64,000 bases of DNA. Origin: Photorhabdus heterorhabditis (lineage in GTDB: Bacteria > Pseudomonadota > Gammaproteobacteria > Enterobacterales > Enterobacteriaceae). The notes beneath the pieces are model-generated. The model did not search any database. It was given only the letters and a program-made list of their open reading frames with translations, and had not been told where the DNA came from. The position numbers were made by a program, and so were the translations under genes. Below are positions 3,418 to 63,868 of this stretch, piece after piece; position 1 is the stretch's first letter, and each line of letters starts with the position of its first letter. The stretch is from contig NZ_RCWA01000017.1 of NCBI RefSeq assembly GCF_018448905.1, forward strand, positions 19,443-83,442, read 5' to 3'.

Positions 3418-4401
3418 GTGGAAACGATTTACGGTTCATCATTGAAAGATGCTGATGCCGTCTATACCTGCCAATTTGATGGAGATGGTGGTATTACACC
3501 GATTAATATCAATGTACCCGCCACACCAGCTCAACCTTTCTGGCAACATTTGGATTACCATAATTCCAGGAGTTATCGTTGGATTATGGATACGGATTTG
3601 TTACCAGAACCTATCAAAACGGGGTTGGCAGGGGAAAGTTTGAGGCCGAAAATGATCCGTACCGGTGACGGTACGATGATCACTCTCCGAACAATTAATA
3701 ACAATGAAAGTGAACGTCCTGAGCAATTGGTAACCTTCCGTATTTATATCAATGATAAAATCATTGTTTCCAGCTGTCATCGTGAAGTTCATTCACTTGG
3801 ACAGGTGTTAAGTGATTTGCAAAATGGTATAGGTGCGAAAGCGACCGGGCACTGGTTGGTAGAAATGGTTGATACTATAACCGATGAGGTTGGTAACTTT
3901 ATTGAAGATCTGCATGACAATCTTATTGAGCTTGAGAATACGATTTTGGATCAACAGATGCCGGGGCGGGGAGAATTAGCGTTGCTACGTAAACAACTGA
4001 TTATTCTGCGTCGTTATATGGCGCCCCAAAGAGATGTGTTTTCACGTCTTGCTAGTGAAAGATTTCCCTGGATGAGTGATGAAGATCGTCGCCGGATGCA
4101 AGAAATTTCTGACCGTTTGGGGAGAGAACTGGATGATTTGGACGGTAGCATTGCCCGAACGGCAGTTATTTCTGATGAAATTACCTCGATGATGGCAGAT
4201 GCCATGAATCGTCGTACCTATACTATGTCATTACTTGCTATGATTTTTTTACCAACAACATTCCTGACTGGGTTATTTGGTGTCAATCTTGGCGGTATTC
4301 CTGGTAATGAATATTATTTGGGTTTCAGTGTGTTTTGTTTATTACTATTGGGATTGATTTTATTTGTTGCGTGGTGGTTAAGGCGAAGTAAATGGCTATG
4401 A
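3418..4401 (+). CDS. zntB: Zinc transporter ZntB (CorA family)
   Basis: This 327-residue inner-membrane protein, equal in length to E. coli ZntB, starts at GTG 3418 with AAGGA about 7 nt upstream. The long N-terminal cytoplasmic funnel (residues 1-265) is followed by two transmembrane helices near 270-290 and 300-320. The CorA-family signature GMN appears as GVN in GLFGVNLGGIPG, the form found in ZntB. The chain ends in RRSKWL as in E. coli. ZntB moves Zn2+ coupled to protons. It lies 15 nt after mppA and may be co-transcribed with it. fnrS follows, as in E. coli. Confidence 0.95.
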   Translation: METIYGSSLKDADAVYTCQFDGDGGITPININVPATPAQPFWQHLDYHNSRSYRWIMDTDLLPEPIKTGLAGESLRPKMIRTGDGTMITLRTINNNESERPEQLVTFRIYINDKIIVSSCHREVHSLGQVLSDLQNGIGAKATGHWLVEMVDTITDEVGNFIEDLHDNLIELENTILDQQMPGRGELALLRKQLIILRRYMAPQRDVFSRLASERFPWMSDEDRRRMQEISDRLGRELDDLDGSIARTAVISDEITSMMADAMNRRTYTMSLLAMIFLPTTFLTGLFGVNLGGIPGNEYYLGFSVFCLLLLGLILFVAWWLRRSKWL

Positions 4402-4468
4402 CGGTCAAAGGGTTATATTAAAGAAATAAAACATAATTACTAAAGCTTTGCTAAAACTGGCCTTTAAT

Positions 4469-4607
4469 TTGAGATATATACCCAATAGATTTCAAGATGC
4501 ATCGCGACGGCAAGGGAGCGAATCCCCGGGAGCAGAGATAACTCTGTGACCGGGGTGAGTGAGTGCAGCCAACAAAGAGGCAACTTGAAAGATGACGGGT
4601 ATATCAA
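4469..4607 (+). promoter_or_regulatory. FNR box of fnrS, split by an ERIC insertion
   Basis: The left half TTGAGATA (4469-4476) and right half ATCAA (4603-4607) flank the 127-bp ERIC. The filled/empty ERIC pair at 62,360 shows that an insertion adds 125 bp with a duplicated TA. Removing 4479-4603 by that rule gives TTGAGATATATCAA, one mismatch from the FNR consensus TTGAT-N4-ATCAA, centred 41-43 bp upstream of the predicted fnrS start at 4643. In the present arrangement only the right half-site remains in place. The reconstruction is an inference but needs no adjustment of the sequence. Confidence 0.7.
4477..4603 (+). repeat. ERIC element, full length (127 bp)
   Basis: It begins TATACCC, ends GGGTATA and contains the ERIC core (GCGAATCCCCGGGAGC ... 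GTGACCGGGGTGAG). The ends are inverted repeats, so the transcript folds into one long hairpin. It sits between zntB and fnrS, inside the fnrS promoter. Confidence 0.93.
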
Positions 4608-4642
4608 TATTCACCAAGAATAATTGAGGCATGATGACTTCC

Positions 4643-4820
4643 GCAGGTGAAAACAACGTTAAGCGATGAACGTTGTGCTCTATAATTGTAGTTTTTCTCA
4701 CATTGAATCTTTCTGTGACCGGAGTGAGTGCAGCCAACAAAGAGGCAACTTGAAAGATAACGGGTATAGAATAATTGCCCATTCCTGTGCCGATATTATT
4801 TTCTAATATCGGCTTTTTTT
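4643..4820 (+). ncRNA. fnrS: FnrS anaerobic small RNA, enlarged by an internal partial ERIC
   Basis: The 5' part (GCAGGTGAAAACAACG, then TTAAGCGATGAACGTTG from 4659) matches the start of E. coli FnrS as I remember it, including the GCGATG stretch that pairs with target mRNAs. The end is an intrinsic terminator: GCCGATATTA / TAATATCGGC (4789-4813) with a TTTTC loop and seven Ts, like the GCCGA-stem terminator of E. coli FnrS. It lies right after zntB, the E. coli location. The known RNA is about 120 nt; here it would be about 178 nt because 4712-4768 is ERIC sequence. The 5' end is estimated by alignment. FnrS represses aerobic-metabolism mRNAs with Hfq when oxygen is absent. Confidence 0.75.
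4712..4768 (+). repeat. Partial ERIC (right half) inside fnrS
   Basis: The segment from CTGTGACCGG to GGGTATA matches the right 57 bp of the full elements, and the left end TATACCC is absent. It lies between the fnrS seed region and its terminator stem. Confidence 0.85.
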
Positions 4821-5290
4821 ATTTTTCATTATTATCTTAATTAGAATAAGAAACTAATAAATGAAAATTAAGGTGAAAAATAAATTACCGTTCTTAAATA
4901 TGTCTAAAGTGGTACTTATACGGAAAAAATCATTGTTCATTCGGATTGAGGCAGTTAGTACGGAAACGATGACAGACCGAGTTTGTCGGACCAATTAAGA
5001 GGAGGTCGATAGTAAGCACCGTTGATAACTGCTATGCCCTGGCGTATCAGCTAATCCCTGTTGGCGGATCTTGTTGGTACGCTCATACGACACGTGGGTT
5101 TCGCTACGAGAGATTTCCTCTGTACCCAATCAGAGACGATAACTGTGAATCCAATTATTCCGTGTTAAATAACCTGTTACTTTTTTGTGACGATTAACTT
5201 GCCATATAAATAGCTGGCTGTAGTCGTTCGCCTTTAGTGAAAATAGTCGTAAGTGCTCGATTGGGCGGGGAGTCGTCACCTACAGATATG
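4821..5290. other. Intergenic stretch between fnrS and ttcA with no recognised gene
   Basis: E. coli has dbpA here; no dbpA-like coding sequence is visible. The sequence is less AT-rich than its surroundings in 4960-5160. A minus-strand frame of 49 codons starting GTG at 5279 and ending at 5130 is open, with an overlapping second open frame. No homologue is recognised and no good ribosome-binding site is seen, so it is not called a gene. It could be an insertion remnant. Confidence 0.3.
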
Positions 5291-5385: not shown

Positions 5386-6282
5386 ATGAATCAGAAAGAT
5401 ACGAGAAAAGAGACACTGGAATTCAATAAGCTTCAGAAACGCTTAAGGCGGAATGTTGGCAATGCTATTATTGATTACAATATGATTGAAGAAAATGATA
5501 TTGTGATGGCATGTATCAGTGGTGGTAAAGATTCATTTGCGATGTTAGATATCCTATTGAATCTGCAAAAGGCTGCACCAATAGAATTTAAAGTAGTTGC
5601 AGTGAACCTTGATCAGAAGCAACCTGGTTTTCCTGAACACATTTTACCTCAATATTTTGAGAGTCTGGATATTCCATATTATATCGTAGACAAAGACACA
5701 TATTCAGTTGTTAAAGAGAAGATACCGGAAGGTAAAACCACCTGTGGGTTATGTTCAAGGCTTCGCCGTGGAACACTTTATTCTTTTGCTGAAAAAATTG
5801 GGGCAACAAAAGTTGCACTTGGACATCATTTAGACGACATTGTTGAAACTCTATTTCTTAATATGTTCCACGGCTCACGTATGAAAGCTATGCCGCCAAA
5901 GTTACGATCTGATGATGGACGTAACGTAGTCATAAGGCCACTAACATATTGTCGAGAGAAAGACCTTGTTAATTATGCGGAATATAAAGAGTTTCCAATT
6001 ATTCCTTGTAATCTATGTGGTTCTCAAGAAAACCTACAGCGGCAGGCGATTAAAGCTATGTTGGTAGATTGGGATAAGAAAACACCAGGCAGGGTGGAGA
6101 GTATTTTCAAATCTATTCAAAATGTTAGCCCAAGTCAATTAGCAGATAAAGCGCTTTTCGACTTTGTCAATTTGCCGCTGTATCGTGAAGGTGAAAGAGA
6201 AGAATACGCATTTAACGAAGCAGTAATATCGTCGACTAACATTGATGAATCAATGTTTATTGATATTAGTATTGATATGTGA
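5386..6282 (+). CDS. ttcA: tRNA 2-thiocytidine biosynthesis protein TtcA
   Basis: TtcA thiolates C32 of some tRNAs using ATP and an iron-sulfur cluster. The PP-loop motif SGGKDSF is near residue 46, and the Cys pairs CGLCSR (about 122/125) and PCNLCGSQ (about 211) are present. The 298-residue chain is slightly shorter than the E. coli protein (311), and the last 40 residues are divergent and acidic, ending MFIDISIDM. The core ([33 protein letters not shown]) is strongly conserved. The start at 5386 has a weak upstream GAGAAG. Together with zntB and fnrS this keeps the enterobacterial order. Confidence 0.95.
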
Positions 6283-59387: not shown

Positions 59388-59867
59388 TTAATAGGCTCTG
59401 TCTTCCCATATACTATAGGCTGATGTGCCGGCTGTTATATGATTCCATGAAATTGATTTATAATTTAGAAAAACTCTTTCATATGGCATGGCATCGAAAT
59501 TATTTATAGAATGTGGATATACACAGGAAATATCAGTAAGAGTAGCTTCAATTATTTTAACTTCATAAAACAACTCTAATTGCCCAGTTTGACCTGTTCT
59601 GTAAAAAATAAAATTACCATTTAGCGATTCATTTGAATCTATTGCCATAGCTAACAATGGTGATGACTTATCTACTGGCTTAATGAACTGTATGGGTTGA
59701 TGACTAACATTCTGCTGTCTTGTTATTGTATGGTTTAAACTCAGTACCTGTATTTGATCCTCGTGTCCATTTTGATACCTATTTCCTATTGAATCTAGGG
59801 TTGAACACCCAGCAGAGATTAGCCCTTGTTTTTTACCATTCAGAGACAAATAAATCATGTATGACAT
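59388..59867 (-). CDS. hcp: Hcp family type VI secretion protein, copy A
   Basis: This 159-residue protein has the Hcp pattern: MIYLSLNGKKQGLISAGCST, a central HTITRQQNVSHQPIQFIKPV with DKSSPLLAMAIDSN, then YRTGQTGQLELFYEVKIIEA and a C-terminal YERVFLNYKSISWNHI. Hcp hexamers form the type VI inner tube and carry effectors in the lumen. No other type VI gene is present, so this is an orphan auxiliary module. It differs from copy B at only one residue (LTDISC against ITDISC). Confidence 0.83.
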   Translation of the reverse strand: MSYMIYLSLNGKKQGLISAGCSTLDSIGNRYQNGHEDQIQVLSLNHTITRQQNVSHQPIQFIKPVDKSSPLLAMAIDSNESLNGNFIFYRTGQTGQLELFYEVKIIEATLTDISCVYPHSINNFDAMPYERVFLNYKSISWNHITAGTSAYSIWEDRAY

Positions 59868-60018
59868 AAAATTACTATCCTAATTTTTTATAATTTAACC
59901 TAATATTCTAGGTAAGTTAAGTATGTAATCTAATACATAAGTAAAAGTTACAATAGTAATATAAATCAAGAAATAGAAATTTAAAATATTGTTTGTTACT
60001 TGCATTTAAGTTGAATGT

Positions 60019-60046
60019 AAAAATGGTGATTCAAATCACCATTTTT
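60019..60046. terminator. Bidirectional hairpin at the end of unit A
   Basis: AAAAATGGTGA / TCACCATTTTT has a TTCAAA loop and T-runs on both strands. An identical hairpin follows the permease gene at 62,544. Confidence 0.8.
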
Positions 60047-60063
60047 ATTGATGATTTTGTGTT

Positions 60064-60145
60064 TATACCCAATAGATTTCAAATTGAAGCGCGGCGGCAA
60101 GAGAACGCAGCCAACAAAGCAGCAACTTGAAAGATGAAGGGTATA
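60064..60145 (+). repeat. Internally deleted ERIC (82 bp), unit B
   Basis: It is the same shortened ERIC as in unit A, at the matching place. Confidence 0.85.
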
Positions 60146-61787: not shown

Positions 61788-62267
61788 TTAATAGGCTCTG
61801 TCTTCCCATATACTATAGGCTGATGTGCCGGCTGTTATATGATTCCATGAAATTGATTTATAATTTAGAAAAACTCTTTCATATGGCATGGCATCGAAAT
61901 TATTTATAGAATGTGGATATACACAGGAAATATCAGTAATAGTAGCTTCAATTATTTTAACTTCATAAAACAACTCTAATTGCCCAGTTTGACCTGTTCT
62001 GTAAAAAATAAAATTACCATTTAGCGATTCATTTGAATCTATTGCCATAGCTAACAATGGTGATGACTTATCTACTGGCTTAATGAACTGTATGGGTTGA
62101 TGACTAACATTCTGCTGTCTTGTTATTGTATGGTTTAAACTCAGTACCTGTATTTGATCCTCGTGTCCATTTTGATACCTATTTCCTATTGAATCTAGGG
62201 TTGAACACCCAGCAGAGATCAGCCCTTGTTTTTTACCATTCAAAGACAAATAAATCATGTATGACAT
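61788..62267 (-). CDS. hcp: Hcp family type VI secretion protein, copy B
   Basis: This 159-residue protein is identical to copy A except for one residue (ITDISC). It is convergent with immunity gene B. The extreme similarity, against diverged toxins in the same unit, indicates recent duplication or gene conversion. Its likely role is carrying the adjacent toxin through a type VI apparatus encoded elsewhere. Confidence 0.83.
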   Translation of the reverse strand: MSYMIYLSLNGKKQGLISAGCSTLDSIGNRYQNGHEDQIQVLSLNHTITRQQNVSHQPIQFIKPVDKSSPLLAMAIDSNESLNGNFIFYRTGQTGQLELFYEVKIIEATITDISCVYPHSINNFDAMPYERVFLNYKSISWNHITAGTSAYSIWEDRAY

Positions 62268-62359
62268 AAAATGACTATCCTAATTTTTTATAATTTAACC
62301 TAATATTCTAGGTAAGTTAAGTATATAATCTGATGCATAAGTAAAAGTTACAATAGTAA

Positions 62360-62486
62360 TATACCTGTTATCTTTCAAGTTGCCTCTTTGTTGGCTGCAC
62401 TCACTCACCCCGGTCACAGAGTTATCTATGCTCCCGGGGATTCGCTCCCTTGCCGTCGCGATCCATCTTGAAATCTATTGGGTATA
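62360..62486 (-). repeat. ERIC element (127 bp), reverse orientation, recent insertion
   Basis: It is the reverse complement of the other full elements. Unit A has the empty site (CAATAGTAATATAAATC), so the element adds 125 bp and duplicates TA. It lies upstream of hcp B, within 62,268-62,587, which has no gene. Confidence 0.95.
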
Positions 62487-62543
62487 TAAATCAAGAAATA
62501 GAAATCTAAAATATTGTTTGTTACTTGCATTTAAGTTGAATGC

Positions 62544-62571
62544 AAAAATGGTGATTCAAATCACCATTTTT
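62544..62571. terminator. Bidirectional hairpin after the permease gene
   Basis: AAAAATGGTGA / TCACCATTTTT with a TTCAAA loop. It lies 17 nt after the permease stop on the minus strand and is identical to the one at 60,019. Confidence 0.8.
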
Positions 62572-62587
62572 ATTGATGATTTTGTGT

Positions 62588-63868
62588 TTATAACACCAGA
62601 TCCAGGATGATGACACCACATAAGCCAATTACCCATGCAATCGTGGTCGGTACTGACCAGACAATCATCTGTTGTTTCACATCTTTAATTCCCATCATCC
62701 GGTTAACTACCCAAAACAGGCTGTCATTAAAATAACCAAAGAATAGTGAACTCATAGTTGCTGCTTGTGCGGCGACCAGCATATTGATCCCCGGAATCTG
62801 ACTAATGATCGGGGCAGAAATAGACGCTGCGGTAATCATTGCCACGGTACCGGAACCTTGAATTAAGCGAACCAGTGTTGCAATGATAAATGGAATCATC
62901 ACCGGTGTCAGAGGTAGGCTTGCTATATGTTGTGCCAGCATAGTACCTGTGCCACTTTCACGTAGTACCGCACCTAACGCACCGCCAGCTCCTGTCACTA
63001 ATAAAATAATACCAGCAGTCTGTAAACCTTCTTCCAGTCGATTAATCACTTCATGTTTATTGATTTTTGGCATTAAGGTATAAACGGCCAACAATACGCT
63101 GATTGATAAAGCAATAACGGGTGCGCCAAGGAAATCAAATGCTTGAAAATAGAAGTTGTTTTCTTGTCCAGTAAAGGTTTTAGTACTTAATAGCAATCCA
63201 TTAATAGCTTTAATGAAGATTAAAACGATAGGAACGATAATCGGCAGCAGGGAGAAAAATAGACCCGGTAGTGATTTATTCGCTTTTTCTTCCATATAGC
63301 GCTGATGGATTGCTTGCAGATCCTGAGCTTGTTCTGCTTCATCAGCTGGCTGAAATTCTGGATATTTTATTGCCAGCCATTTGGCATAGAACACAATGCC
63401 AATAACACAAGGAACTGCCAGCACCATTCCAGCTAGCATCATAGCGCCGATATCTACGCCAAAGATACCTGCGACACCCAACGGCCCTGGAGTGGGCGGG
63501 ACGGCATGATGGGTAACAACTAATCCACCTGCCAGGGCTACCCCGAGAGTCAGTAGATTACGTTTCCCTTTTTTAGCCAGCGCCTTAGCTAATGGGTAGA
63601 GGATAACGAAAGCAGAATCGACAAAAATTGGAATACTGACAATATAACCGGTAATTGCTAAAGCCCACTCTTCGCGTTTTTTACCCAACCACCTAATAAA
63701 GCTGTAAGCTATCTGTTCAGCAGCGCCAGAAACTTCCAGCACTCTTCCCATCATGACACCTAAACCGATGACAATACCAATACTGCCGAGTGTAGAACCG
63801 AAGCCTTTAGCAAAAACCGCCGTAAACCCTTGCCTAGTGCGGGCGGGGATATAAGGCGAAAAGCCCAA
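62588..63868 (-). pseudogene. GntP-family gluconate/organic acid permease, 5' end cut off
   Basis: The chain from AVFAKGFGSTLGSIGIVIGLG to the C-terminus (CGVIILDLVL) is a complete GntP-family body with about 11 helices (SIPIFVDSAFVILYPLAKAL, THHAVPPTPGPLGVAGIFG, LIQGSGTVAMITAASI, YFNDSLFWVVNRMMG). Relatives begin about 45-55 residues earlier with a first membrane helix that is missing; the first 20 residues here read from foreign DNA. The break coincides with the left end of an IS200/IS605-like element. The substrate could be gluconate or a related sugar acid. Confidence 0.75.

Follow-up and report, generated by a model that had tools for sequence, protein, structure and literature searches.

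An ERIC element within the FNR box of the fnrS promoter of Photorhabdus heterorhabditis and its likely effect on oxygen control of a small RNA

The FNR box in front of fnrS, which encodes the small RNA FnrS, is interrupted in Photorhabdus heterorhabditis by a complete ERIC element, and both the insertion and the identity of the interrupted site are confirmed. It is probable, as judged from the sequence, that this is a recent insertion private to the lineage by which anaerobic activation of FnrS has been lost or strongly reduced. The window, as used below, is the whole analyzed stretch of 64,000 nucleotides (positions 19443-83442 of a contig in a 5.05-Mb Photorhabdus draft genome of 226 contigs), in which the following features are relevant:

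3418..4401, + strand: zntB, upstream neighbor (NCBIfam NF007092)
4469..4476, + strand: left (upstream) half-site TTGAG and first letters of the spacer, moved away from the other half-site (window letters and uninterrupted box in relatives)
4477..4603, + strand: full ERIC, 123-bp core with TA on each side as target duplication (window letters and empty site in relatives)
4603..4607, + strand: retained promoter-proximal half-site ATCAA, -40 to -36 (window letters and consensus scoring)
4630..4635, + strand: probable -10 element CATGAT (inferred by eye from aligned promoters, 13 of Photorhabdus and 4 of outgroups)
4643..4817, + strand: FnrS small RNA, Rfam RF01796 (covariance-model match, 78.3 bits, cut-off 60)
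4713..4768, + strand: truncated right half of an ERIC inside the FnrS RNA, nt 71-126 (Rfam match, ERIC copies and alignment)
4789..4813, + strand: fnrS terminator stem-loop (terminator scan)
5386..6282, + strand: ttcA, downstream neighbor (NCBIfam NF007972)

The promoter ERIC is composed of a TA at 4477-4478, a core TACCC...GGGTA of 123 bp at 4479-4601 and a second TA at 4602-4603, giving 127 bp overall, and it is flanked by TTGAGATA at 4469-4476 on the left and by TCAA at 4604-4607 on the right. The original prediction held that the element lies inside the FNR box, and that its removal with one TA kept restores a near-consensus box at about -42. Both points were borne out, as the flanks joined over a single TA give TTGAGATATATCAA, which matches 9/10 fixed positions of the consensus TTGATnnnnATCAA and stops 35 nt short of the fnrS start predicted by Rfam (4643), and relatives without the ERIC have this same box at the same distance to the RNA. 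The insertion target was the TA at positions 9-10 of the box; no tandem repeats were found at the insertion site. The excision rule was drawn from a filled/empty pair at 62,360 and is sound: the ERIC-filled stretch 61,900-62,592 of the window duplicates 59,500-60,067, which is 98% identical, lacks the element and has one TA.

FNR binds as a dimer to two half-sites. In the consensus these stand 4 nt apart, whereas in the window the ERIC lies between them and has pushed them 125 bp further apart, so that only the promoter-proximal half-site is still in register. The 14-mer that now occupies the register, GACGGGTATATCAA, agrees with 5/10 consensus positions, compared with 9/10 for the restored box, in line with the predicted loss of the left half-site from its place; the left half supplied by the ERIC end matches 0/5 positions, since the right half yields all five matches. 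An FNR box near -42.5 is thus absent from the window, although the RNA still fits RF01796, and the promoter downstream of the retained half-site is unchanged in length.

The relatives without the ERIC had been named in advance as the comparison on which the original prediction could fail, and they leave it unrefuted: fnrS is present in 13/13 Photorhabdus genomes searched (the genome of the window included), and the 12 others all have an uninterrupted box, which reads TTGAGATATATCAA in 11 and TTGAGATAGATCAA, with one change, in P. thracensis. A scan of ZntB in named genomes covered 38 loci of Photorhabdus, Xenorhabdus and Proteus, a set to which the genome of the window possibly does not belong, and in 36 of them TTGANNNNNNTCAA lies no more than 500 nt downstream of zntB, 30 of these having TTGAGATATATCAA letter for letter. 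One of the two exceptions is X. mauleonii (L056), where fnrS and an intact box lie ~1.8 kb further from zntB. The other is X. khoisanae (L057, 3482-5981), where a transposase-like sequence, as judged by eye, follows zntB and no fnrS match was found in the locus DNA examined; here, fnrS may be lost or displaced. An Rfam scan of 20 of the 38 loci found fnrS behind zntB in 19, and directly behind fnrS of X. griffiniae VH1 (L062, 3666-3789) there is an Rfam STnc490 match of 122.2 bits.

Altogether, 62 fnrS loci were read, namely 43 from genome searches (Photorhabdus and family genomes) and 19 from the zntB-locus scan. In 59 of these the box has its center at -42.5, in L001 the center is at -41.5, L041 has a 13-nt form, and the last is the window; a score of 8-9/10 at -42.5 or -41.5 was obtained for 60/61 loci other than the window, so that the box is near-constant at this place (60/62). 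In the L041 locus, which is from outside Photorhabdus, the 13-nt box TTGCGCCAGTCAA lies ~42 nt ahead of fnrS and may be a further FNR site that has been weakened. At the level of the family, 56/99 genomes have an fnrS match, of which loci were read for 30 and, besides the genome of the window, 25 lie outside the count; 35 of the 43 genomes with no match are listed as <2 Mb. The position of the restored box is that of the FNR site of the FNR-activated fnrS promoter of E. coli, likewise at -42.5 (PMC3688515 Table 1), from which the window differs in keeping only the promoter-proximal half-site in register. FnrS of the window resembles the RF01796 family in adjoining zntB, in its conserved 5' hairpin and terminator and in the -42.5 box of its relatives, and differs in that the box is split and the RNA is longer by a 56-bp ERIC remnant.

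The inserted element has the length (123-127 bp) and the inverted ends (TATACCC/GGGTATA) of an ERIC, its insertion into TA with TA duplication is seen both from the empty site in relatives and from the pair at 62,360, and as RNA it is predicted to fold into a long hairpin. By description, it is like MITEPlu5 of P. luminescens, with which it shares a 123-bp core, TA duplication, CCC near the ends, a strong hairpin and a copy number in the hundreds; MITEPlu5 is reported as a 123-bp IS630-like MITE with TA duplication, the ends of which are similar in sequence to IS630-type ends; strain TT01 has 552 complete copies, and 47 copies appear as indels when two P. luminescens strains are compared (PMC6267812). 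No difference was noted in the element itself; what is notable is its landing inside the site of a regulator. The window holds six full ERICs and, outside ERICs, 1,076 non-coding TA, of which 81 are TATA. Among distinct full copies of the genome at the loci examined, an extra TA precedes the left TA in 24/42 and follows the right TA in 5/42, an asymmetry that may lie in the end of the element rather than in the target. Near 1819 (L108), an ERIC is flanked by what looks like the middle of another ERIC, apparently a nested insertion.

The promoter copy appears to be young. Compared with a consensus built from 29 distinct 127-bp copies in its own genome, it deviates at 3/127 positions; two of the three letters are common to 14/29 copies and one, at position 59, is private. 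The fourfold-degenerate sites of zntB differ at 39/115 positions between the window and P. australis and at 38/115 between the window and P. asymbiotica, its two closest relatives, with ZntB 90% identical to both, and because one private change in 127 bp stands against this divergence, the insertion would have occurred late on this branch, unless ERIC copies homogenize. Among the genomes seen, which include one of this species, it appears private to this lineage. The fnrS RNA is without visible decay: the alignment of promoters and RNAs shows two private substitutions, the first within the RNA and the second between -35 and -1, a third apparently private difference being a length change behind the terminator, and the window differs from P. 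asymbiotica at 11/155 positions and from P. australis at 14/155. The insert may, however, be too young for decay of fnrS to show.

The hit looks like an accident, in which an abundant element met a box with TA targets in its spacer. In Photorhabdus, Xenorhabdus and Proteus, most boxes have central TA steps (GATATATC), while boxes such as TTGAGCGAAGTCAA (L014) are without TA. Scaling from one 64-kb sample gives ~470 full ERICs and ~85,000 non-coding TA per genome, and if 60-90 real FNR boxes with about one TA each are assumed, roughly 0.3-0.5 ERIC hits in real FNR boxes are expected per genome, so that a hit in some FNR box is roughly what chance predicts and is unsurprising in itself. Counting every non-coding 14-mer with at least 8/10 raises the expectation to 6.6 hits per genome, mostly in chance sites; the genome contains 21 perfect TTGATNNNNATCAA and 179 TTGANNNNNNTCAA, the latter against 91 for a reversed control. 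Targeting of FNR boxes by ERIC was considered and rejected. When 13 Photorhabdus genomes were searched with the pattern TTGA, 0-4 nt, TATACCC ... TCAA, which misses copies with other ends on both sides, 72 matches were obtained, six loci of which were opened, and the pattern was matched on both strands at three places, namely fnrS of the window's own genome (restored to 14 nt), G002 (13 nt) and G003 (12 nt, counted by hand). Two more ERIC cases of the own genome, each with one changed end, restore to 12 and 15 nt. These lengths scatter around 14 as by chance, with no bias to the 14-nt spacing and no sign of targeting. The G002 match precedes an ABC-F-like ORF, which by eye is EttA.

A further ERIC, which the original prediction had not mentioned, lies within the FnrS RNA itself, and a 53-nt jump in the Rfam match is explained by this right half of another element. 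The 56-bp remnant has lost its left part and has a further 4-bp gap, hence it is probably older than the promoter copy. In P. noenieputensis (L048 3482-4100; L013), a complete ERIC (125 bp added) starts from nt 71 of FnrS, the FNR box is intact and another ERIC lies upstream of it, and in X. mauleonii (L056 5302-5481) a ~57-bp ERIC-like insert occurs at about the same place of FnrS; from our own reading of the letters, the three insertion targets are within ~2 bp of each other. In E. coli FnrS, mutants of the pairing regions are reported at nt 4-5, 47-49 and 57-59 (PMC8595263, citing Durand and Storz 2010). The remnant sits between the target-pairing regions and the terminator, and since the pairing regions lie 5' of nt 70 and the terminator is intact, the lengthened RNAs could still work. 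The occurrence of inserts at a single spot in three species suggests a position at which additional sequence is tolerated in FnrS. In the predicted fold, the unpaired value of nt 57-59 is 0.17 in the window versus 0.79-0.98 in 12 others, yet concealment of this pairing region by the ERIC fragment was rejected, as 90/300 dinucleotide shuffles and 31/300 random pieces of the window gave equally low values.

Loss of oxygen control of fnrS is the likely consequence of the split box. The FNR gene of the genome is intact (251 aa, NF008365 with 514.6 bits, above the NCBIfam cut-off), its activity being predicted, and it encodes what we take, by eye, to be the FNR cysteine and recognition-helix motifs. 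A simple consensus scan found no sigma70-like site on either strand in 4380-4900 (shuffles average 1.8), so that the ERIC supplies no obvious promoter, and a promoter brought by the element was rejected. With the half-sites 125 bp further apart, the FNR gene intact and no substitute sigma70-like promoter, FNR activation would be expected to be lost or strongly reduced. In the proposed course of events, a MITEPlu5-type ERIC would have inserted recently into the TA at positions 9-10 of the box, after which the FNR dimer would no longer bind at -42.5 with useful affinity and anaerobic activation of FnrS would be lost or strongly reduced; the remaining fnrS transcription would be at most basal, ArcA-dependent or due to read-through from zntB.

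A weakened FNR control could instead persist through the proximal half-site and a degenerate partner in the ERIC end, or ArcA alone could keep anaerobic induction, which we regard as rather unlikely. ATCAA is still at -40 to -36 with downstream lengths unchanged, the RNA is still conserved, and residual FNR control is possible because in E. coli a weak site, that of frdA (6/10 by a count made here), is reported to be saturated with FNR (PMC3688515); similarly, some anaerobic induction could remain through ArcA because ArcA is reported to activate fnrS of E. coli as well (PMC8139620). However, the left half now on offer has none of the five consensus positions, and any putative upstream ArcA site would likewise be displaced by 125 bp. 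Another alternative, which seems quite improbable, is that most FnrS now arises from zntB transcripts that run on into fnrS and are processed at or close to the ERIC hairpin, as a 3'-end RNA free of oxygen control. In 4380-4900, the fnrS terminator is the sole terminator-like site, with none between zntB and fnrS, so read-through is possible, the ERIC is predicted to form a long hairpin as RNA, and ERICs at the 3' ends of Yersinia genes are reported to unmask an RNase E site (PMC10969869, PMC2229807). Yet read-through would not be special to the window, because in P. australis the 200 bp ahead of fnrS are likewise free of terminator-like sites, and such processing is putative for this element and orientation.

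An assembly artifact, or a rare state of the sequenced isolate, might be suspected because the draft genome is in 226 contigs and carries several hundred ERICs, and MITEPlu5 is reported to vary between strains (PMC6267812), but the two flanks belong to a single locus, are correctly ordered and, once joined, reproduce exactly the box of the relatives, and the site is well inside an 83-kb contig; this explanation is extremely improbable. A further reading, also very unlikely, takes the fnrS locus as a recurrent ERIC landing site, in which gain and possible precise loss of the promoter copy would act as a slow on/off switch for anaerobic FnrS and the inserts in the RNA body would be tolerated long forms.

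Disruption of promoters by mobile elements is a known kind of event, of which the window is a clean natural example. MITEs such as Correia and those of Acinetobacter are reported to alter expression or inactivate genes (PMC10969869), and here, too, a small non-autonomous element would change the control of its neighbor; the difference is that the dimeric activator site of a small-RNA promoter is split, with an effect deduced from sequence. A literature search covering titles and the starts of abstracts, with most subscription papers outside it, found no description of this fnrS insertion. Added interest comes from the high conservation of the broken site and the repeated inserts in the FnrS RNA. 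Because the box is near-constant across the fnrS loci examined, a species that had lost it would offer a case in which one regulatory connection has been severed naturally while the gene for the regulator and the RNA both persist. If true, this would allow one to ask at what speed a core regulon is rewired by a mobile element, and what role anaerobic FnrS plays in an insect pathogen and nematode symbiont.
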